Source of the DNA: an uncultured Pelagibacteraceae bacterium
GTDB taxonomy: Bacteria; Pseudomonadota; Alphaproteobacteria; Pelagibacterales; Pelagibacteraceae
Length of the DNA: 41,090 nucleotides
Reading direction: 5' to 3'
Assembly: GCA_902579215.1 (NCBI GenBank)
Contig: CACHGH010000009.1
Location: 1 to 41,090 of the forward strand
Shown in pieces: positions 23,773 through 35,965 of the stretch. The first letter of the stretch is position 1. Each line of letters opens with the position of its first letter. The notes under the pieces were generated by a model that did not search any database, was not told the DNA's origin, and was given only the letters and a program-made list of their open reading frames with translations. The translations under genes and the position numbers were made by a program.

Positions 23773-25173
23773 TTAGTTAAGACTTTTAATTATATCTTCA
23801 GTCATTTTCTTTGCATCTGCAAAAAGCATTAATGTATTATCTCTATAAAACAAGTCATTATCAATGCCTGCATATCCTGGAGAAAGGCTTCTTTTGACAA
23901 AAAGTACAGATTTAGATTTTTCAACATCAAGAATTGGCATACCATAAATTGGACTCTGTGGATCTGTTTTGGCAACAGGATTTGTAACATCATTTGCACC
24001 AATAACATATGCTACATCGCAGTTTGCAAAATCATTATTAATTTCTTCAAGTTCAAATACTTCGTCATAAGGTACGTTTGCTTCTGCTAGTAATACATTC
24101 ATATGACCTGGCATTCTTCCTGCAACTGGATGAATCGCATAAGTTACCTTTACTCCATTTTTTTTTAATGCATCAACCATTTCTCTAAGTGCATGTTGAG
24201 CTTGAGCTACTGCCATTCCATAACCAGGAACAATTATTACTGAAGAAGCATTTTTCATTAAAAAAGCTGCATCATCAGCATTTCCACTTTTTACAGGCTT
24301 TTGTTCTTTAGATTTATCAGAAGAAGATTGGTCAGTTGCACCCCATCCTCCAAGTATTACATTAAAAAATGAACGGTTCATTCCTTTGCACATGATATAT
24401 GACAGGATCGCTCCAGACGAGCCAACTAATGCACCTGTTATTATCAGTGCTGTATTTTCCAAAGTAAAACCAATACCAGCTGCTGCCCATCCTGAGTAAG
24501 AATTTAACATTGAAATTACTACAGGCATATCTGCTCCTCCTATTGGAATAATTAACAGCACACCCAGTAAAAATGAAATTATAATTATTGTCCAAAACCA
24601 TGTATCAACTTGTGTTTTACATAGGTAAAATATTAAACCTACTAGAACCAAGCCCAATACTAAATTAATATAATGCTGACCAAAGAAAGTTATTGGAGAG
24701 CCAGACATAAGCCCTCTTAATTTTAAAAAAGCTATTACAGAACCAGTAAAGGTTATTGCTCCAATAGCGGCTCCTAAAGACATTTCAATCAAACTTGCTA
24801 TTTTAATATTGCCTGGCAAACCTAAATTAAATACTTCAGGATTTAAAAATGCAGATATAGCAACAAAAACTGCTGCTAGTCCAACCAAACTGTGGAAGCC
24901 AGCAACAAGTTCTGGCATTGCTGTCATTGGTATTTTAAATGCAATAAAAGATCCTAACGACCCACCTATTAACATTAAAATTAACAAATACAAAAATCCA
25001 GTTGAAAAATTACCAACCGAAATCATAGTAACGCTTATAGCTAATGCCATACCGATCATTCCAAATAAGTTTCCTTGTCTTGAAGTTTCAGGCGAGGAAA
25101 GGCCTCTTAGAGCTAAAATAAATAACACACCCGAAATAAGATAAAATACTGCTAATAAATTCGCTGAAATCAT
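23773..25173 (-). CDS. pntB: NAD(P) transhydrogenase subunit beta
   Basis: Membrane and NADP-binding subunit of the proton-translocating transhydrogenase, which uses the proton gradient to reduce NADP with NADH. The first about 260 residues hold some nine membrane helices (for example IGGADMPVVISMLNSYSGWAAA). The C-terminal domain has the NADP motif VPGYGMAVAQAQHALREM, HPVAGRMPGHMNVLLAEANVPYD, and VIGANDVTNPVA. Length 466 aa is normal. It overlaps the preceding small subunit by 4 bp. Confidence 0.97.
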   Translation of the reverse strand: MISANLLAVFYLISGVLFILALRGLSSPETSRQGNLFGMIGMALAISVTMISVGNFSTGFLYLLILMLIGGSLGSFIAFKIPMTAMPELVAGFHSLVGLAAVFVAISAFLNPEVFNLGLPGNIKIASLIEMSLGAAIGAITFTGSVIAFLKLRGLMSGSPITFFGQHYINLVLGLVLVGLIFYLCKTQVDTWFWTIIIISFLLGVLLIIPIGGADMPVVISMLNSYSGWAAAGIGFTLENTALIITGALVGSSGAILSYIMCKGMNRSFFNVILGGWGATDQSSSDKSKEQKPVKSGNADDAAFLMKNASSVIIVPGYGMAVAQAQHALREMVDALKKNGVKVTYAIHPVAGRMPGHMNVLLAEANVPYDEVFELEEINNDFANCDVAYVIGANDVTNPVAKTDPQSPIYGMPILDVEKSKSVLFVKRSLSPGYAGIDNDLFYRDNTLMLFADAKKMTEDIIKSLN

Positions 25174-25481
25174 TTTTTATCTTTCTTTTTTTTTTTATAC
25201 ATGGCCAGCATTCTTTGAGTGACTAAAAAACCACCAAATATATTAATAGCTGCTAAAATTATTGCTAAAAAACCAAAAATATTTGCTGTATCAAGTATAT
25301 TTCCAGATTCGCCCGCTAAGGCTGCTATAATAGCTCCGACTATGATCACTGAAGAAATTGCATTTGTTACTGACATCAGAGGTGTGTGTAATGAAGGTGT
25401 AACGCTCCAAACCACATAATATCCTATAAATATAGAAAGAATAAAAATACTAAGTCTAAATATAAAAGGGTCTATTTCCAT
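25170..25481 (-). CDS. pntAB: NAD(P) transhydrogenase subunit alpha part 2 (membrane part)
   Basis: A separate small gene (103 aa) for the C-terminal membrane part of the alpha subunit. Three hydrophobic helices are visible (about 8-27, 40-58, 65-90), with the typical SVTPSLHTPLMSVTNAISSVIIVGA. This three-gene arrangement is the one known in Rhodospirillum rubrum and other alphaproteobacteria, unlike the fused E. coli PntA. It lies 4 bp after the first alpha gene and overlaps pntB. Confidence 0.95.
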   Translation of the reverse strand: MEIDPFIFRLSIFILSIFIGYYVVWSVTPSLHTPLMSVTNAISSVIIVGAIIAALAGESGNILDTANIFGFLAIILAAINIFGGFLVTQRMLAMYKKKKKDKK

Positions 25482-25485
25482 AATT

Positions 25486-26574
25486 TTATGTAATTATTGT
25501 TTTAGCAATAATTTCATCCTCTAAGTTAATTTTAATTTTTTTATTCTCTTTATCATATAAATTTGAAACAAAATTAAATACATTTTTTGCATAAAGACTG
25601 GAAGATGATGTTGGTAATTTATTTAAAATATTTCTTTCACCCATTATTTTAACGCCATTTTTTTCAATTACTTTATCCACTTCGACAAAAGCTACATTTC
25701 CTCCTTGTATTGCCGCTAAATCATATATTACTGATCCTGGTTGCATATTTTTTAACATATTTTCTTTTATGATTAATGGCGCTTTTTTTCCTGGTATCAA
25801 AGCAGTACAGATAACAATATCTATCTTCTTAAGTGTTTCACTTAATAATTCTTCCTGTCTTTTTTTAAATTCTTCAGATGCTTCTTTTGCATACCCACCC
25901 TCTGTTTCTAAATTTTCAGCACCTTCTACAGTTAAAAATTTTCCACCTAAACTTTCCACCTGTTCTTTTGATGCCATTCTAACATCTGTAGCAAATACGA
26001 TTGCTCCCATTCTTTTTGCTGTAGCTATCGCTTGTAAGCCGGCAACTCCAGCGCCAACAACCAAAACTTTTGCAGCAGGAATAGTGCCTGCGGCAGTCAT
26101 CATCATTGGTATAGCTTTTTCAAAACTTGAGAACGATTCTATTACAGCTTTATAACCTGCTAAATTTGCTTGAGACGAAAGTATGTCCATAGACTGTGCC
26201 CTTGTTATTCTAGGTAACAGCTCCAGAGAAAATAAGTTCACTTTTCTCTTTACTAACTCATCTAGGTGTTTTTTATTTTCATATGGATTCAAAACACCTA
26301 TAAAAATTTGGTTAGGTTTTAAAAGAGAAGTTTTGTCTTCGCTTAATAAACTCATTTGAATCATAATATCTAAATTTTCTATTAGTTTTTTTTCATCACT
26401 AATGAATTTAACTCCAAATTCACTATATTCTTTTTCTTCAAAACCTAAATGCTTTCCATAATTTTCGCTTAACTGAACTTCAAAGCCTAGATTTATATAT
26501 TTTTTTGCAATCTCTGGAGTTATGGAAACTCTTTTTTCTAAGTCTTTATTTTCGTTAACTGATCCAATTTTCAT
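25486..26574 (-). CDS. pntAA: NAD(P) transhydrogenase subunit alpha part 1 (NAD-binding)
   Basis: Peripheral NAD(H)-binding subunit, 362 aa. It starts with the alanine-dehydrogenase-like segment KRVSITPEIAKKY, has RITRAQSMDILSSQANLAGYKAV, the Rossmann motif VLVVGAGVAGLQAIATAKRMGA (about residues 170-191), and CTALIPGKKAPLII. It begins the pnt operon on the minus strand, 67 bp after rpmJ, with the gap containing an inverted repeat (26598-26617). Confidence 0.96.
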   Translation of the reverse strand: MKIGSVNENKDLEKRVSITPEIAKKYINLGFEVQLSENYGKHLGFEEKEYSEFGVKFISDEKKLIENLDIMIQMSLLSEDKTSLLKPNQIFIGVLNPYENKKHLDELVKRKVNLFSLELLPRITRAQSMDILSSQANLAGYKAVIESFSSFEKAIPMMMTAAGTIPAAKVLVVGAGVAGLQAIATAKRMGAIVFATDVRMASKEQVESLGGKFLTVEGAENLETEGGYAKEASEEFKKRQEELLSETLKKIDIVICTALIPGKKAPLIIKENMLKNMQPGSVIYDLAAIQGGNVAFVEVDKVIEKNGVKIMGERNILNKLPTSSSSLYAKNVFNFVSNLYDKENKKIKINLEDEIIAKTIIT

Positions 26575-26641
26575 AATGTGTTATACTTTTAGATTAATGA
26601 TAGTTTAAACAATATCAATCTTTGCAAACGTCACATGGTGA

Positions 26642-26767
26642 CTATTTTTGCCTTGCTTTAAATTTTGGATTGATTTTATTAATTATGTAAACTCTGCCTC
26701 GTCTTCTAACAAGTTTAGAGTTCAAATCTCTTTTTTTTAAGGACTTTAGTGAGCTCTTAATTTTCAT
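26642..26767 (-). CDS. rpmJ: 50S ribosomal protein L36
   Basis: A 41-residue ribosomal protein. It opens [14 protein letters not shown] and continues [22 protein letters not shown], unmistakably bL36. It has no cysteine, so it is the zinc-independent form common in alphaproteobacteria. The ATG (26765-26767) is only 11 nt downstream of the 5S rRNA gene on the same strand and has no Shine-Dalgarno, so it may be read from the 5S transcript. It was found by direct translation. Confidence 0.96.
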
Positions 26768-26778
26768 AAATTTTTATA

Positions 26779-26894
26779 GCCTGGCAACGACCTACTCTTC
26801 CATGCCTTAAGACAAAGTACCATCGGCGCTGAAGGGCTTGACTTCCGAGTTCGGAATGGGATCGGGTATTGCCCCTTCGCAATAATCACCAGGC
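26779..26894 (-). rRNA. rrf: 5S ribosomal RNA
   Basis: The minus strand reads as a full 116-nt 5S rRNA. The 5' GCCTGG pairs with the 3' CCAGGC to form helix I. The interior has the conserved CCCATTCCGAACTCGGAAGTC and the GCGCCGATGGTA segment. It stands alone: no 23S precedes it within the window. Upstream (higher coordinates) lies the sugar island. A promoter is predicted directly before it. Confidence 0.97.
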
Positions 26895-26928
26895 AGAAGT
26901 TTTATACATAAAAAAAATAAATTGTAAA
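26895..26928 (-). promoter_or_regulatory. Predicted sigma-70-type promoter of the 5S rRNA gene
   Basis: On the minus strand: -35 TTTACA (complement of 26923-26928), a 16-bp spacer and -10 TATAAA (complement of 26901-26906). Seven bases further is base 26894, the first base of the 5S molecule. The 51-bp gap between the 5S gene and the stop of the next gene holds the whole element. Confidence 0.6.
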
Positions 26929-26945
26929 CAACGATTTATTTGAAT

Positions 26946-27827
26946 TTAAGATGTTTTGATTACTTTGTTTATATAGTCTTTTAACTGGATCTTTCCAAAC
27001 ATTTTATAAACTTTATTAGACAAGTTCATATTTGTTAAGGCAGATGCATACCTTTCTCCCTCACGAGGAGGAAGCATTTTTATTTTAGAATGAAAGAGCT
27101 TTGCAACCTGCAAAATAGTATAGCTCTTTTTGTTCGAAATACTGTAATGTTTACATTCGTTTTTTCTCCAAGCAAAATAACATGCCTCAACAGTATCCAG
27201 AATATGAGTGAATCTTCTAGATTGATTACCTGGCTTAACAACTGTCAGTGGTTTATTTTTTTTATATAGATTTTCAAAAATACCAATGACTGTTGCCATT
27301 TCACCTACACTTATTTGTCCAGGTCCATAAACATTATAAAAATAAATTATTTCAAATTTCATTTTAAACCATTTTTTTAAGTTCTCTAACATTTCTAAAT
27401 TTTTTGCTTTAGTAAAAGCATATGGAGATAAATTTTTATCATTACCTTTATTTCCAAGGTTTGCAGAAGTAGCGGAATAAATAAGTTTAATATTATTATT
27501 AAGACAAAAATTAAAAATTGCGTGTGATCCCACAGAGTTAGATTCAATGCACTCATTCATTTTCATAAAACTTTGATAAATTCTAGAAAATTCTCCAAAA
27601 TGAAAAATTGTTTTAATTTTTTTAGTTTTATTTTTTAAAATTTTGTCAATATTTTTAGTATTGTCTTTAACATATTTAATTCTTTTATTTTTAATATGAT
27701 TTTTTGTTGTTCCAGAAGAGTAATTATCGATACTTAAAATTTTATATTTTGTTTTTTTTAAAATTAACTTTATTAAATTTGATCCAACAAACCCAGCGCC
27801 GCCTGTTACAACTATAATATTTTTCAT
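26946..27827 (-). CDS. NAD-dependent sugar epimerase/dehydratase (SDR, UDP-glucose 4-epimerase-like)
   Basis: Extended short-chain dehydrogenase acting on a nucleotide sugar. The NAD motif VTGGAGFVGSN is at residues 7-17, IDNYSSGT follows beta-2 as in GalE, and SATSANLG with Tyr 136 and Lys 140 (PYAFTKAK) forms the catalytic set. Length 293 aa is on the short side. It is the first gene of the island next to the 5S gene, last in a four-gene minus-strand run with fcl, gmd and an FkbM methyltransferase. The exact sugar is not determined. Confidence 0.85.
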   Translation of the reverse strand: MKNIIVVTGGAGFVGSNLIKLILKKTKYKILSIDNYSSGTTKNHIKNKRIKYVKDNTKNIDKILKNKTKKIKTIFHFGEFSRIYQSFMKMNECIESNSVGSHAIFNFCLNNNIKLIYSATSANLGNKGNDKNLSPYAFTKAKNLEMLENLKKWFKMKFEIIYFYNVYGPGQISVGEMATVIGIFENLYKKNKPLTVVKPGNQSRRFTHILDTVEACYFAWRKNECKHYSISNKKSYTILQVAKLFHSKIKMLPPREGERYASALTNMNLSNKVYKMFGKIQLKDYINKVIKTS

Positions 27828-27839
27828 ATTAAATATATT

Positions 27840-28775
27840 TTATTTACTGTTTAGATATGATTTGTAAGTTTTTAAAATTGCATCTTTAAGATTAGTTTTA
27901 GATTTCCATCCATATCTTTTTGCTAAAGATACATCAAGTACTTTTCTTGGTGTTCCATTTGGCTTTGACAAATCATATATAATTTTTATTTTTTTATTTG
28001 GAATTATAATTTTTAAAATCAGTTTTGCGTAATCTTTGATTGTATAATCTTTTCCTGTGCCAATATTTATAACGCTCTCTTTAATTTTTTTATTCATAAA
28101 AAAAATACATGCTCTCGCTATATCATCAACATAAATAATCTCTCTTTTTGCCAAACCATTTCCCCACAAAGACAAATTTTTTTTATTTTGAGTTTTTACT
28201 TTATGAATTTTTCTGATTAGAGCAGGAAAAAAATGAGAATTTAGTTCGTGGTAGTTATCATTGGGACCAAAAGTATTTGTTGGCATTAAACATTTATAAT
28301 TTGTTCCATATTGATTATTGTAACTTTCGCACATTTTAATTCCCGCAATTTTAGCAATAGCATAAGCATCATTTGTTTTTTCTAAATCTCCCTGAAGCAA
28401 ATAAGATTCTTTAATTGGTTGTTTGCACAATCTAGGATAGACGCAGCTAGATCCAAGAAAAATTATATTTTTTACACCACTTAAATATGCTGAATGAATT
28501 AAATTTGATTGTATCATTAAATTTTCATAAATAAATTCACCTTTATACTTATTATTAGAATAGATTCCTCCAACCTTAGCTGCAGCTATAATAATAAACT
28601 TTGGTCTATTTTTTTTTAAAAAATTAGTTACCTTTTGTTGATTTGTTAAATCTAGCTTTGATCTAGTTGCGAATATAATATTTTTAAAACCTTTTTTTTT
28701 TAATTGGCGTAAAATAGCACTTCCAACTAATCCTCCATGTCCTGCTAAAAATATTTTTGAATTTTTTTTTAACAT
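27840..28775 (-). CDS. fcl: GDP-L-fucose synthase
   Basis: Epimerises and reduces GDP-4-keto-6-deoxymannose to GDP-L-fucose with NADPH. The motifs are LAGHGGLVGSAI, AAAKVGGIYSNN, FLGSSCVYPRLCKQPIKE and the Tyr 138/Lys 142 pair in DAYAIAKIAG, then PTNTFGPNDNYHELNSHFFPALI. Length 311 aa fits. It lies 10 bp downstream of gmd, the classical pair. Confidence 0.94.
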   Translation of the reverse strand: MLKKNSKIFLAGHGGLVGSAILRQLKKKGFKNIIFATRSKLDLTNQQKVTNFLKKNRPKFIIIAAAKVGGIYSNNKYKGEFIYENLMIQSNLIHSAYLSGVKNIIFLGSSCVYPRLCKQPIKESYLLQGDLEKTNDAYAIAKIAGIKMCESYNNQYGTNYKCLMPTNTFGPNDNYHELNSHFFPALIRKIHKVKTQNKKNLSLWGNGLAKREIIYVDDIARACIFFMNKKIKESVINIGTGKDYTIKDYAKLILKIIIPNKKIKIIYDLSKPNGTPRKVLDVSLAKRYGWKSKTNLKDAILKTYKSYLNSK

Positions 28776-28785
28776 AAAATAATTA

Positions 28786-29820
28786 TCAATATGAAAATTC
28801 TTCTGAAATCATATCTTTAATTAGCTCTTTAATGTTAACCTTTGGTTTCCATTTTAACTGTCTTCTTGCTTTTGTCGCATCTCCTAAAAGTGTGTTAACA
28901 TCTAGTGGTCTAAAATATTTTTTATCACACTCAACAATAACTTTTTTACTTATTTTATCATAAGCTTTTTCTTTAATACCTTTTCCCTTCCAAATTATTT
29001 TCATATCAAGTTCATGTGCTACAAGGTTAATAAATTGTTTAACACTATATTGTTTTCCAGTTGCAATTACATAATCATCTGAAGTTTTTTGCTGAAGAAT
29101 TTTCCACATTGCCTCAACATAATCTTTGGCATGTCCCCAATCTCTTTTCGAATTTAGATTTCCAATGAACAATTTTGATTGTGTGCCTTCTTTTATTTTA
29201 ATCATAGCTTTAACAATTTTTTTTGTAACAAAAGTTTCACCTCGTCTTGGACTTTCGTGATTAAACAAAATTCCGTTTGCTGCAAAAATATTATAAGCCT
29301 CTCTGTAATTTTTTGTAATCCAATGACCATAAAGTTTTGCAACACCATAGGGACTTAGTGGATAAAAATTTGTTTTTTCATTTTGCGGAACAGATTGAAC
29401 TTTTCCAAACATTTCAGAAGTGCCTGCTTGATAAAATTTAGTTTTCTTTTCCATCTTGTGAAATTTAATTGCTTCTAATATTCTTAAAGCTCCTAAGGCA
29501 TCTGCATTAGCCGTATACTCTGGAACTTCAAATGAAACTGCTACATGAGATTGAGCTGCTAAATTATATATTTCATTAGGTTTTACTGCTTTAATAATTT
29601 TAGATACAGATGTTGAGTCAGTGATATCGCCATAATGCAAAATAAAATTTCTTTTAGACTCATGTGGATCTTGGTAGATATGATCTACTCTATTTGTGTT
29701 TATAGATGAAGATCTTCTTTTTACACCATGAACAATATATTTTTTCTTTATTAAAAATTCAGCTAAATAAGATCCATCTTGGCCTGTTACTCCAAATATA
29801 AGTGCAATTTTTTTTTTCAT
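28786..29820 (-). CDS. gmd: GDP-mannose 4,6-dehydratase
   Basis: Makes GDP-4-keto-6-deoxymannose from GDP-mannose. Visible are [14 protein letters not shown] (cofactor loop, residues 10-23), [46 protein letters not shown], the catalytic Tyr 158/Lys 162 in [12 protein letters not shown], and [16 protein letters not shown]. Length 344 aa is normal. It provides the substrate for the adjacent fcl product. Confidence 0.96.
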
Positions 29821-29864
29821 AAATTTAAACTTTCATATTTTTATATTTAAAAATCAATATTTCA

Positions 29865-30575
29865 TCAATTTAAATTTTCAAAAATATACTCAAACGTCTT
29901 TCTAAAATACATTTTTGATTTAAATTTTAGAGCAAAATTATTTTTTTTTAAGATATTGCATATATCAGAAAAACTATAATCTTTATCAATCATATTATCA
30001 TAATGGTGTTCAAGAAGTATAAAATTTATTAATTTAAAATGATCATTATTAATTCCTTTTAACACATTATATTCATAACCCTCTGTATCAATTTTTAAAA
30101 TATCAATGTTGCTAATATTATTTTCATTAATAAAATTAGATAGTTTTATAATCTTAACAGATTGTTTAAAGCTATATTTTTTTTTTGAGAATGGTAATAA
30201 CAATTTTTTTTTTAATAAAAAATATTTTGATTGTTCTGATATTTTATTAAATGTTGACGACTGGCTATCAACAACAATATTTAAGTCTTCAGTTTTTTCT
30301 TCATTGCCAACACCTAAATTGTAGGTAAAAACATTGTTGCTACTTTTAGCTTTTAAATTTTTATAAATAAAAGGATTTGGTTCAAAAGAATATATTTTAT
30401 CAATTGTGAAATTTTTTGAATATAAGTTTATGGTTTCTCCTTTATGTCCACCTACATCAATTAAAGTAATTTTTTTATTCTTAATTTTTTTTTTAAAAAA
30501 ATTACATATTTTTTTATTTGTAAATTGGTCAAAAAATGCAAACAATAAATGAAATAATCTAATATAATAATTCAT
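29865..30575 (-). CDS. FkbM family methyltransferase
   Basis: SAM-dependent O-methyltransferase of the FkbM type, often acting on sugars in glycan clusters. Motif I is ITLIDVGGHKGETINLYSK (about residues 36-54), followed by IYSFEPNPFIYKNLK, YNLGVGNEE, and the family signature IDILKIDTEGYEYNVLKG. Length 236 aa. Its start codon shares one base with the stop of the 560-aa membrane protein upstream, so the two are coupled. The target sugar is unknown. Confidence 0.9.
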   Translation of the reverse strand: MNYYIRLFHLLFAFFDQFTNKKICNFFKKKIKNKKITLIDVGGHKGETINLYSKNFTIDKIYSFEPNPFIYKNLKAKSSNNVFTYNLGVGNEEKTEDLNIVVDSQSSTFNKISEQSKYFLLKKKLLLPFSKKKYSFKQSVKIIKLSNFINENNISNIDILKIDTEGYEYNVLKGINNDHFKLINFILLEHHYDNMIDKDYSFSDICNILKKNNFALKFKSKMYFRKTFEYIFENLN

Positions 30576-32257
30576 TATTTTATTATGGATTTATATTTAT
30601 TTATATAAATCATTTTAATTTTAGACCTATTAGAACACGGTGTAGGAGTAGCCCAGCACATGTCATCAATTGGATTATAAATTTTTTTTCCATTTTCGTT
30701 GAAACTAAGTTTGTAATTAACATTTGGTACATAAAAAAAAGGGTAATTAAGAATATCGTAATTATATTTGGCAATTTCGTGATTAAGTCTTGATATATTT
30801 CTACCATTATAAACTAGAAAAGTTAAAAAAATCAAAAAAATAGTTAATTTATAATTTTTTTTATGGAAATAGTTAAAACTACTTAAATACAAACTAAAAA
30901 TTATAAATAATGTTAGAGAAATTAAGACATATCCACCATATCTTAAAGATGGATGAAATAAAAACCATTCTACCAAAAAAACAGAAGATAAGATCAAAGG
31001 AACAAAATAGTTAAATTTTTTTTTAATTTGTTTTTTTTTATTTCTATAAAATAAACAAAAAGTTAAAATTAATAAAAAGACTAAACCAAATAAAAAATCA
31101 GAAACTTTATTAAAAAAATATTTTTCTATCCAGTTATTTATCCATTTAAAATTTTTAACATAATCTTTTTTTTTTATATCTACTGAATAATTAGAACCTC
31201 CTCCAGCCTTAGCCCACCATTCATAGTGTACTTTCATTTTTTGTACTTCATCTTTTTTAATTGACCATTGTAAATTTTCATTGCAAGTTTGTTTTGCAGG
31301 ATAAAGGGCACACCCTGTGCTTAAAAAATTTATTGAAAATATCATTAAAACAAAAAAAGTAAAAACAGATAAAATTTTCATAGATTTGAAATTAATAAAA
31401 GTAAAAAATATTTTTTTGTTTAATAATAAAATAATAGGAATAATAAAATATATGAAAAAATAAGCTTTCATGCTTGCAGCTAAAACAGTAAATAAAATTA
31501 GTAGAACTATATCTTTTTTAATATTATCAGTTTTATTGTTGAAATTAATTATCTCAAAATATTTTATAAAAATTAAAAAAACTAATATTTGACCCGCTCT
31601 ATCGGCTCCAAATTCAGCAATTCTGTAGAAAAAACAATTAACAAAAATAAATGATAATAAATATAAAAAATAAAAAAAATCATAATTTTTACTTTTAGTT
31701 TTCTGAAAAATAAATTTGAGGCTAACGATATTAAAAAATATTAATGTATAAAGGCCATGGGCATGAAACAAATTATATTTTATATAAGGAAGATAAAATA
31801 AAGAATTAAAGTAAAATATAGAAGATGGGGTTCTATAACCATGACCTAAATTGCCCATTCCTATAATAAATTGATTTTCAACTAAAGTTAATGAATAAGG
31901 TAAGTGATAATATGGAAAATCATCATGATTTTTGGATATGTACAATCCTATTAAAGATAATAAAGAAATTAATAATAAAAACTTAAGATTTTTTTTAAAA
32001 TAAACCTCATCTTTTTTAAAAAAGAAACCAATAAAACCCAGAACAAGAATAAAGCAATTAAAAACAAAACTATGGGCAAAGAAAAAACTAGATAACATTG
32101 CTATTAAACTTAAAAAAAATATTCCTAGTAGCCCTTGAAAACCAAAATTTAATTTTGAAAAATTAGGATAAAAAATAGAGGAAAATATCCTTCCATGACC
32201 TATTATTGTAATTAAAAATAGATAAAAGAAAAAAATAAAACTAATATTTGCAAACAT
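30575..32257 (-). CDS. Large multi-spanning membrane protein, LIC_10190/GT-C-like
   Basis: A 560-residue protein with about twelve hydrophobic helices. The first large loop contains KNHDDFPYYHLPYSLTLVENQF (Asp 112, Asp 113, His 118) and GNLGHGYRTPSSIFYFNS. This resembles membrane proteins annotated as the LIC_10190 family and the catalytic loop layout of GT-C transferases. A later loop carries two cysteines (STGCALYPAKQTCNE). It probably transfers or polymerises lipid-linked sugar at the outer face of the inner membrane; this is inference from fold type and island context. Confidence 0.72.
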   Translation of the reverse strand: MFANISFIFFFYLFLITIIGHGRIFSSIFYPNFSKLNFGFQGLLGIFFLSLIAMLSSFFFAHSFVFNCFILVLGFIGFFFKKDEVYFKKNLKFLLLISLLSLIGLYISKNHDDFPYYHLPYSLTLVENQFIIGMGNLGHGYRTPSSIFYFNSLFYLPYIKYNLFHAHGLYTLIFFNIVSLKFIFQKTKSKNYDFFYFLYLLSFIFVNCFFYRIAEFGADRAGQILVFLIFIKYFEIINFNNKTDNIKKDIVLLILFTVLAASMKAYFFIYFIIPIILLLNKKIFFTFINFKSMKILSVFTFFVLMIFSINFLSTGCALYPAKQTCNENLQWSIKKDEVQKMKVHYEWWAKAGGGSNYSVDIKKKDYVKNFKWINNWIEKYFFNKVSDFLFGLVFLLILTFCLFYRNKKKQIKKKFNYFVPLILSSVFLVEWFLFHPSLRYGGYVLISLTLFIIFSLYLSSFNYFHKKNYKLTIFLIFLTFLVYNGRNISRLNHEIAKYNYDILNYPFFYVPNVNYKLSFNENGKKIYNPIDDMCWATPTPCSNRSKIKMIYINKYKSIIK

Positions 32258-32968: not shown

Positions 32969-33043
32969 TGGTGGGCACAGTAAGAATTGAACTTACGACC
33001 TCTACGATGTCAACGTAGCGTTCTACCACTGAACTATGTGCCC
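32969..33043 (-). tRNA. tRNA-Val (GAC)
   Basis: Complete 75-nt cloverleaf on the minus strand with encoded CCA. Acceptor GGGCACA pairs with TGTGCCC. The D arm is TTC...GAAC-like, the anticodon arm CTACG TTGACAT CGTAG reads GAC, and the T loop is TTCAATT. It lies inside the polysaccharide island, between a plus-strand GT2 gene and a minus-strand WecA/MraY-like gene. Confidence 0.96.
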
Positions 33044-34864: not shown

Positions 34865-35965
34865 ATGAATCAAAAAAAACTAATTATATTCATGCCTTCT
34901 ATTGAGGGTGGCGGTGTTGAAAAAAATCTTATGATTATAGCCAACTATTTAAGCACAAGGATTAAAAAAGTAGCTATAATCAGTTTATCGAAAAAATTTA
35001 AATCAAAATTTAATAAAAAGATTAACTTTATTACCACAAAAATAAACTTTGATTATTTGAATAGAAAAACAAAGTATCTAATTTCTTTATTTTTACTATT
35101 TAGGGAACTATTAGGAAACAAAAATAAAGTGGTTTTTTCTTTTCAAGCAAACATTTACTGCATACTACTTTGCAAAATTTTAAATGTTAAAGTTGTTGTT
35201 AGGTCAAATTCATCTCCTTCAGGCTGGTCAAAAAATTTTATAAAAAAATTTGTTTTTAAGTTTGTTCTTAACTTAGCTGATAAAATTGTTGTAAATAGTT
35301 TTGATTTTAAAAAAGAAATGGAACAAAAATTTAATGTAAAATCATTTTGTATATATAATCCCTTAGATGTACATAAGATCAAAAAATTATCAAAAAAGAA
35401 AGTAGAAATTTCAAATAAAAAATATTTAAAAATAATAAATATAGGAAGATTTACAGATCAAAAAGATCATATAACACTTTTAAAAGCAGCACTACTTTTA
35501 AAAGATAAATTAAAGTTTAAAATTTTAATTCTAGGAAAGGGTGTAAACAAAGATAAAATTAAAAATTTTATTAAAAGTAATAAATTAGAAAAAATTATAT
35601 TTGTTAAAAAATTTACATCTAACCCCTATCCATACCTTAAAAGTTCAGATTTAATGGTATTAACTTCTATATATGAAGGTTTGCCAAATGTAATTTTGGA
35701 AGCCATAACTTTAAATAAATTTGTAATATCAAGTGACTGTCCAACTGGACCTGCAGAAATATTAGATAAAGGCAAAGGTGGACTTTTATTTAAACCTAAA
35801 GATTATAAAGATCTTGCAAGAAAAATAATTTTTTATACAAAAAATAAAAAAACTTGTAAACAAATGTTAAAATATTCTAAATCGAGATTGATAAGATTCG
35901 ATCAAAACACAAATCTAAAAAAATATTATGATTTAGTTAATACTTTTTTGTTTAATAAAAATTAA
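34865..35965 (+). CDS. Glycosyltransferase family 4 (WbpH/WaaG-like)
   Basis: Retaining GT-B glycosyltransferase, 366 aa. The N-terminal domain has FMPSIEGGGVEKNLMIIANYL. The C-terminal domain has INIGRFTDQKDHITLLKAA, ILGKGVNKDKI, and the nucleotide-sugar-binding YEGLPNVILEAITLNKFVIS with the E-x7-E pair, then SSDCPTGPAEIL. It converges on another GT4 gene and the two stop codons overlap in a TTAA. The shared SSDC-x-x-GP segment suggests the two are paralogues. Confidence 0.92.
   Translation: MNQKKLIIFMPSIEGGGVEKNLMIIANYLSTRIKKVAIISLSKKFKSKFNKKINFITTKINFDYLNRKTKYLISLFLLFRELLGNKNKVVFSFQANIYCILLCKILNVKVVVRSNSSPSGWSKNFIKKFVFKFVLNLADKIVVNSFDFKKEMEQKFNVKSFCIYNPLDVHKIKKLSKKKVEISNKKYLKIINIGRFTDQKDHITLLKAALLLKDKLKFKILILGKGVNKDKIKNFIKSNKLEKIIFVKKFTSNPYPYLKSSDLMVLTSIYEGLPNVILEAITLNKFVISSDCPTGPAEILDKGKGGLLFKPKDYKDLARKIIFYTKNKKTCKQMLKYSKSRLIRFDQNTNLKKYYDLVNTFLFNKN

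Follow-up and report, generated by a model that had tools for sequence, protein, structure and literature searches.

The window analysed here, a stretch of 41,090 bases, is one entire contig of an uncultured Pelagibacteraceae genome of 1.01 Mb (33 contigs, 82.8% complete). A 5S rRNA gene is located on its minus strand at positions 26779–26893 (RF00001, model positions 1–120, full model, 95.9 bits) and is the sole 5S copy in the host genome at its 82.8% completeness. An A/T-rich linker of 11 nt (26768–26778, minus strand), the probable site of 3′ cleavage, separates the 5S from rpmJ (26642–26767, minus strand; PF00444, E 3.6e-16), which encodes ribosomal protein L36 of 41 aa plus stop and is the only copy found in the genome. 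Further in the 3′ direction the pnt genes follow, with pntA (transhydrogenase alpha; 25486–26574, minus strand; PF01262/PF05222) as the conserved neighbour after rpmJ. On the other side, a gene for an NAD-dependent epimerase (26946–27827, minus strand; PF01370) borders a sugar island and lies directly upstream of the 5S promoter described below; a tRNA-Val gene (32969–33043, minus strand) is situated beyond further sugar genes. Between the tRNA-Val and the 5S, the island also contains a 560-aa ORF (30575–32257) with no Pfam match. A first-pass annotation of this DNA had described an orphan 5S adjoining a sugar island and preceded by no 23S within more than 14 kb. Our search agrees with both statements: sugar genes stand directly upstream of the 5S, and no 16S or 23S rRNA gene was found in the 41,090-base window. 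None was found in the host genome either, which is weak evidence because the genome is incomplete (82.8%, 33 contigs). Thus, the locus departs from a canonical 16S-23S-5S operon, in which the 5S lies within about 100 nt of the 23S and is flanked by a processing stem: no 23S is present in the 14 kb upstream of the 5S on the contig, and the stem is absent in the window's family.

Directly after the rpmJ stop codon, a short hairpin GTCAC-atg-GTGAC occupies positions 26630–26642. Its plus-strand copy is terminator-like, and no T-run is present on the rpmJ strand. The hairpin has no Rfam match and sits where the accessible part of Meyer 2009 (PMC2704228) places the "pntA element" in HTCC1062. An Rfam search at E ≤ 1 around rpmJ-pntA gave, besides the 5S, only a mir-202 match of 16.5 bits, far under the cut-off; therefore, the published element was not seen at this position in the window.

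Read on the minus strand, the sequence leading into the 5S runs TTTACA, a 16-nt spacer, TATAAA, ACTTCTG, and CCTGG. The first hexamer (26923–26928, minus strand) corresponds to a −35 element and TATAAA (26901–26906, minus strand), which lacks the final T, to a −10 element; both were read from the sequence, and their columns are conserved in relatives. The TTTACA-16 bp-TATAAA motif reported earlier before the minus-strand 5S is thus confirmed. It has the features of a sigma-70-type promoter (−35/−10 hexamers, a spacer of 16–18 nt, and a start 6–8 nt past the −10), the G at position 26894 (minus strand), which opens helix I of the 5S, lying 6 nt after the −10. The first-pass annotation had put the start at exactly base 1 of the 5S. 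That the promoter is set for the 5S 5′ end holds; the likeliest start, however, is G26894, one base before 26893, because 6 bases lie between the −10 and this G. We take the placement of the 5S 5′ end, which relies on the Rfam model and the E. coli 5S, to have 1–2 nt of play.

In Alphaproteobacteria, the −10 usually lacks the final T, according to the accessible text of PMC8407463. A generic sigma-70 scan of positions 24000–30000 detected 34 sites vs. 32.1 expected and gave no support by itself; the 5S promoter was not among these sites because the scan requires the final T in the −10. The significance of the promoter comes from its conservation across relatives and not from the generic scan. 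With a weight matrix trained on the relatives, including the window, the two strands of the 41,090-base window together contained only two sites of at least 12 bits, one being the 5S promoter. The sole other such site (35837, minus strand, 16.3 bits) lies inside or antisense to the ORF at 34865–35965.

For the comparison, 135 loci were fetched around the 5S, and after removal of three duplicates, 123 loci of the window's family and nine loci of a sister family were retained. The 123 were drawn from 295 matching members of the family, chiefly by highest 5S score, with near-closed genomes in addition; the nine are from 30 in the sister family. Locus L019, with 44 nt upstream, was excluded from site scoring, hence n = 122 there. 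In the 123 family members, the −35 columns reached 1.3 bits; the background, columns −200 to −61, had a mean of 0.034 and a maximum of 0.148. Comparing the upstream gap across SAR11 relatives, as the first-pass annotation had suggested, showed that the −35 and −10 are kept: under a matrix derived from the same set, 116 of 122 loci scored at least 7 bits, compared with 2.2% of 2063 slid windows. The spacer was 16 nt long in 48 loci and 17 nt in 63. Between the −10 and the G lay 5 nt in 53 loci and 6 nt in 59, i.e., 5–6 nt in 112 of 122. The G opening helix I was invariant (123/123), and a pyrimidine preceded it at −1 in 111 of 123 loci. The final −10 base was mostly A or G and rarely T. G+C content was 39% between the −10 and the start vs. 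12% in the spacer.

Except in the cross-genus test, training and scoring of the matrix used the same loci. With training on other genera, 62 of 74 loci of the window's genus had the best site within 200 nt placed 4–8 nt ahead of the G; a better-scoring site was located elsewhere within 200 nt in 12 of 74. The reverse test, trained on the window's genus, gave 47 of 48. A scan of genome contigs for the promoter together with the 5S start returned at least 119 stretches, and 79 of 80 titles among the matches listed were Pelagibacteraceae or Pelagibacter. The remaining one (L231) is titled Acidimicrobiaceae; it has a 5S promoter of the SAR11 type along with an epimerase 73% identical to that of the window and is probably mis-binned. 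In L096, a helix I base of the 5S was altered (TCTGG), the −10 was weak, no gene followed closely, and rpmJ was not seen in the fetched stretch; it is possibly a decaying or rearranged copy. A promoter type common to the 16S and the 5S was unsupported: applied to the region before the 16S, the 5S matrix yielded no consistent site. No comparable promoter was found before the 5S of the sister family: six of nine loci had no site above 0 bits, and three had sites of 3.6–8.4 bits at other distances. Taken together, the comparative data strongly support a conserved promoter of its own before the lone SAR11 5S.

The two families also differed in the sequences flanking the 5S. Pairing between the 22-nt flanks had a median energy of −13.5 kcal/mol in the sister family (−5.5 when shuffled). 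For the window's family, the value was −2.7 kcal/mol (−3.3 when shuffled), i.e., the processing stem is lost. A fixed start geometry combined with stem loss is what would be expected if the 5S were no longer cut at its 5′ end. The earlier suggestion that the promoter removes the need for 5′ processing is therefore plausible. With a sigma-70-type promoter 5–6 nt before the first paired base of the 5S, RNA polymerase would begin at the mature 5′ end or within about 1 nt of it, and no 5′ trimming would be needed. Transcription most likely starts there, at the predicted G26894 in the window.

Alternatively, the 5S could come mainly from read-through of an upstream gene or tRNA-Val and be processed at both ends, with the promoter-like site being secondary. 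The nearest upstream ORF was indeed co-directional in 94 of 121 loci, 30 of 123 relatives have a co-oriented tRNA-Val gene 46–144 nt before the 5S, and RNase E/G was encoded in 19 of 19 genomes. However, the promoter is retained in the 27 of 121 loci where the nearest upstream ORF points away from the 5S, the start geometry is constant whatever the upstream neighbour, and the processing stem is lost. We consider this explanation improbable. Read-through from the co-directional genes may nevertheless add longer 5S precursors to those started at the 5S promoter.

The separation of the 5S from the 16S-23S genes in SAR11 has already been published. In Wilhelm 2007 (PMC2217521) and Viklund 2013 (PMC3815206), as far as their accessible portions go, the sole 5S lies on the far side of HVR2, a surface-sugar island of ~50 kb, from the 16S-23S; the accessible text of Haro-Moreno 2019 (PMC7318151) gives the split for SAR11 with the exception of subclades IV and V. 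The hypervariable region that the first-pass annotation placed between the 16S-23S and the 5S of Pelagibacter is thus on record in these three papers. Our search found one 5S in each of 31 genomes of the order. In seven genomes of the window's family whose 23S and 5S share a contig (G001, G003, G005, G007, G009, G024, and G070; 23S match fragmented in G009 and G070), the 5S was located 46–62 kb downstream of the 23S on the same strand. In G017, it was 437 kb from the 23S on the opposite strand, and the promoter-5S-rpmJ arrangement was retained. The other members of the family had the genes on different contigs or no 23S match. The 23S was missing in 10 of the 31 genomes searched, and G020 had neither 16S nor 23S; this is partly a matter of search and assembly, because G011, G015, G026, and G158 have a 16S 46–83 kb before the 5S on the same strand. 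In loci L170–L179 of the window's family, the 3′ end of the 23S was followed by a conserved block, TGCACTGAAAAAAATTT, and then by unrelated island DNA; this block might end the 16S-23S transcript.

In the sister family, presumably one of the SAR11 subclades IV and V, the 23S was found 89–96 nt before the 5S in nine of nine loci, which is canonical operon spacing. There rpmJ lay 54–78 kb beyond the 5S on the same strand in the four genomes with both on one contig (G004, G023, G027, and G029). The ORFs read in one of these genomes, G004, included surface-sugar-type genes after the 5S and some kilobases before rpmJ. An island thus fills the interval between the 23S and rpmJ in both families, and the point of difference is the border at which the 5S sits. 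The earlier claim that the island split the rRNA operon is not established, because the island-like region of the sister family lies on the other side of the 5S, between it and rpmJ, with the 5S beside the 23S. Two scenarios fit: entry of the island on different sides, or a change of sides by the 5S, which may have moved from one island border to the other.

The neighbours of the 5S varied among the relatives. A homologue of the window's epimerase was located upstream of the 5S in 19 of 123 loci (18 and one further off) and downstream in 37; the 67 loci of the third state (state C) showed no such epimerase within the DNA fetched. On a pntA tree, a local gene tree of 114 loci with many weak branches, the neighbour states required 29 changes vs. 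a mean of 43.9 when shuffled. "Hopping" of the 5S over the epimerase was considered and set aside, since 5S movement and epimerase exchange are indistinguishable on this tree.

The join on the 3′ side was missed by the first-pass annotation. In the window, rpmJ starts 11 nt after the 5S, and a gene start was found within 40 nt after the 5S in 121 of 123 relatives. This gene was homologous to rpmJ or the epimerase gene of the window in 119 of 123 loci and encoded a different epimerase, 10–11 nt after the 5S, in L031 and L093; L096 and L122 had no gene close after the 5S. The gaps were 7–29 nt (median 10) before rpmJ and 8–38 nt before the epimerase, in which case rpmJ usually followed about 900 nt further. 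An ATG was present at the estimated start in 118 of 119 loci. The linkers between the 5S and the gene (119 loci, median 10 nt) were 91% A/T, and a Shine-Dalgarno-like triplet occurred in one of 119; this is not special to the linkers, because only four of 32 ORFs in the window have such a triplet. Gene starts within 40 nt after the 5S leave no space for a terminator, and the 5S therefore probably forms the 5′ leader of an mRNA. If it heads an mRNA, its 3′ end still needs cutting.

It is unlikely that the promoter serves the 5S only and that rpmJ or the epimerase gene is transcribed separately, with a non-canonical terminator at the 5S 3′ end. The 5S is required at much higher levels than the mRNA, which speaks for such an arrangement, and the conserved T-rich stretch that ends the 23S in the window's family suggests that terminators may be unusual there. 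However, a gap of 7–38 nt of 91% A/T is too small for a hairpin and a T-run, and 116 of 118 loci had no promoter of at least 7 bits within the 5S or the linker. That the promoter is maintained for the protein operon downstream, with the 5S ending up in its leader through a chance exchange of islands, is in our view very improbable. The close gene start in 121 of 123 loci fits this idea, but the downstream gene varies (rpmJ or either of two kinds of epimerase) through 29 neighbour changes, with promoter and 5S intact. Moreover, the 5S is single-copy in the 31 genomes searched, and an mRNA leader would need no start exactly at the 5S end.

The preferred reading is that the 5S is an autonomous unit with a start at the mature 5′ end, run-on into the next gene, and 3′ release by cutting, and on comparative grounds we consider it likely. 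Transcription from the 5S promoter would continue through the 5S into rpmJ, or into the epimerase gene and then rpmJ, and the 3′ end of the 5S would be freed by endonuclease cleavage, for which RNase E is the likeliest enzyme, and by trimming. The promoter geometry, the stem loss, the tight spacing to the next gene, and the RNase E/G gene are observed; from them we infer the start base, the co-transcription, the cutting enzyme, and a 5′ triphosphate. We give about even chances to a further proposal. The 5S would serve both as an rRNA and as the entire 5′ leader of the mRNA for L36, with one promoter for both; its 5′ end would be carried into ribosomes unprocessed, possibly as a triphosphate, and the 3′ cut would yield a near-leaderless rpmJ (or epimerase-rpmJ) mRNA. 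An RNA of the 50S subunit would thus be coupled to a 50S protein in a compact unit that outlasts the repeated exchange of its neighbours.

Several known systems resemble this locus. The SAR11 papers on HVR2 (PMC2217521, PMC3815206, PMC7318151) describe, as in the window's family, a sole 5S far from the 16S-23S; in their accessible portions, the transcription of the 5S, its promoter, the lost stem, and the join to rpmJ are not treated. The Arctic SAR11 isolate uisw_092 (PMC12421898) has a 5S translocated far from its usual place relative to the 23S, as in G017, and the accessible text does not treat the promoter or rpmJ. The Pelagibacter "pntA element" (Meyer 2009, PMC2704228) belongs to this very locus: rpmJ precedes pntA there, and metagenome sequences have 5S or rmlB on the 5′ side of the motif. 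The accessible part of that paper is about an RNA motif before pntA and gives no 5S promoter; the word "promoter" does not occur in its main text. In the open-licence literature searched, we found no description of a SAR11 5S promoter, of the stem loss, or of a 5S-rpmJ transcript.

If the proposed unit is real, the 5S of SAR11 escapes both the shared rRNA transcript, with its rRNA equimolarity, and 5′ maturation, and its dosage is set by a separate promoter common to a ribosomal protein gene. SAR11 bacteria rank among the most abundant cells of the ocean. The locus would be an example of how streamlined genomes cope with a broken rRNA operon and a bacterial counterpart of the independently transcribed archaeal 5S. 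A start at the mature end is known for archaeal 5S RNA. In TACK archaea, according to the accessible text of PMC8339473, the 5S lies apart from the 16S-23S and is transcribed on its own, as proposed here for SAR11. The archaeal genes, however, have archaeal promoters, whereas the SAR11 5S has a sigma-70-type promoter and, as we propose, an mRNA on its 3′ side.
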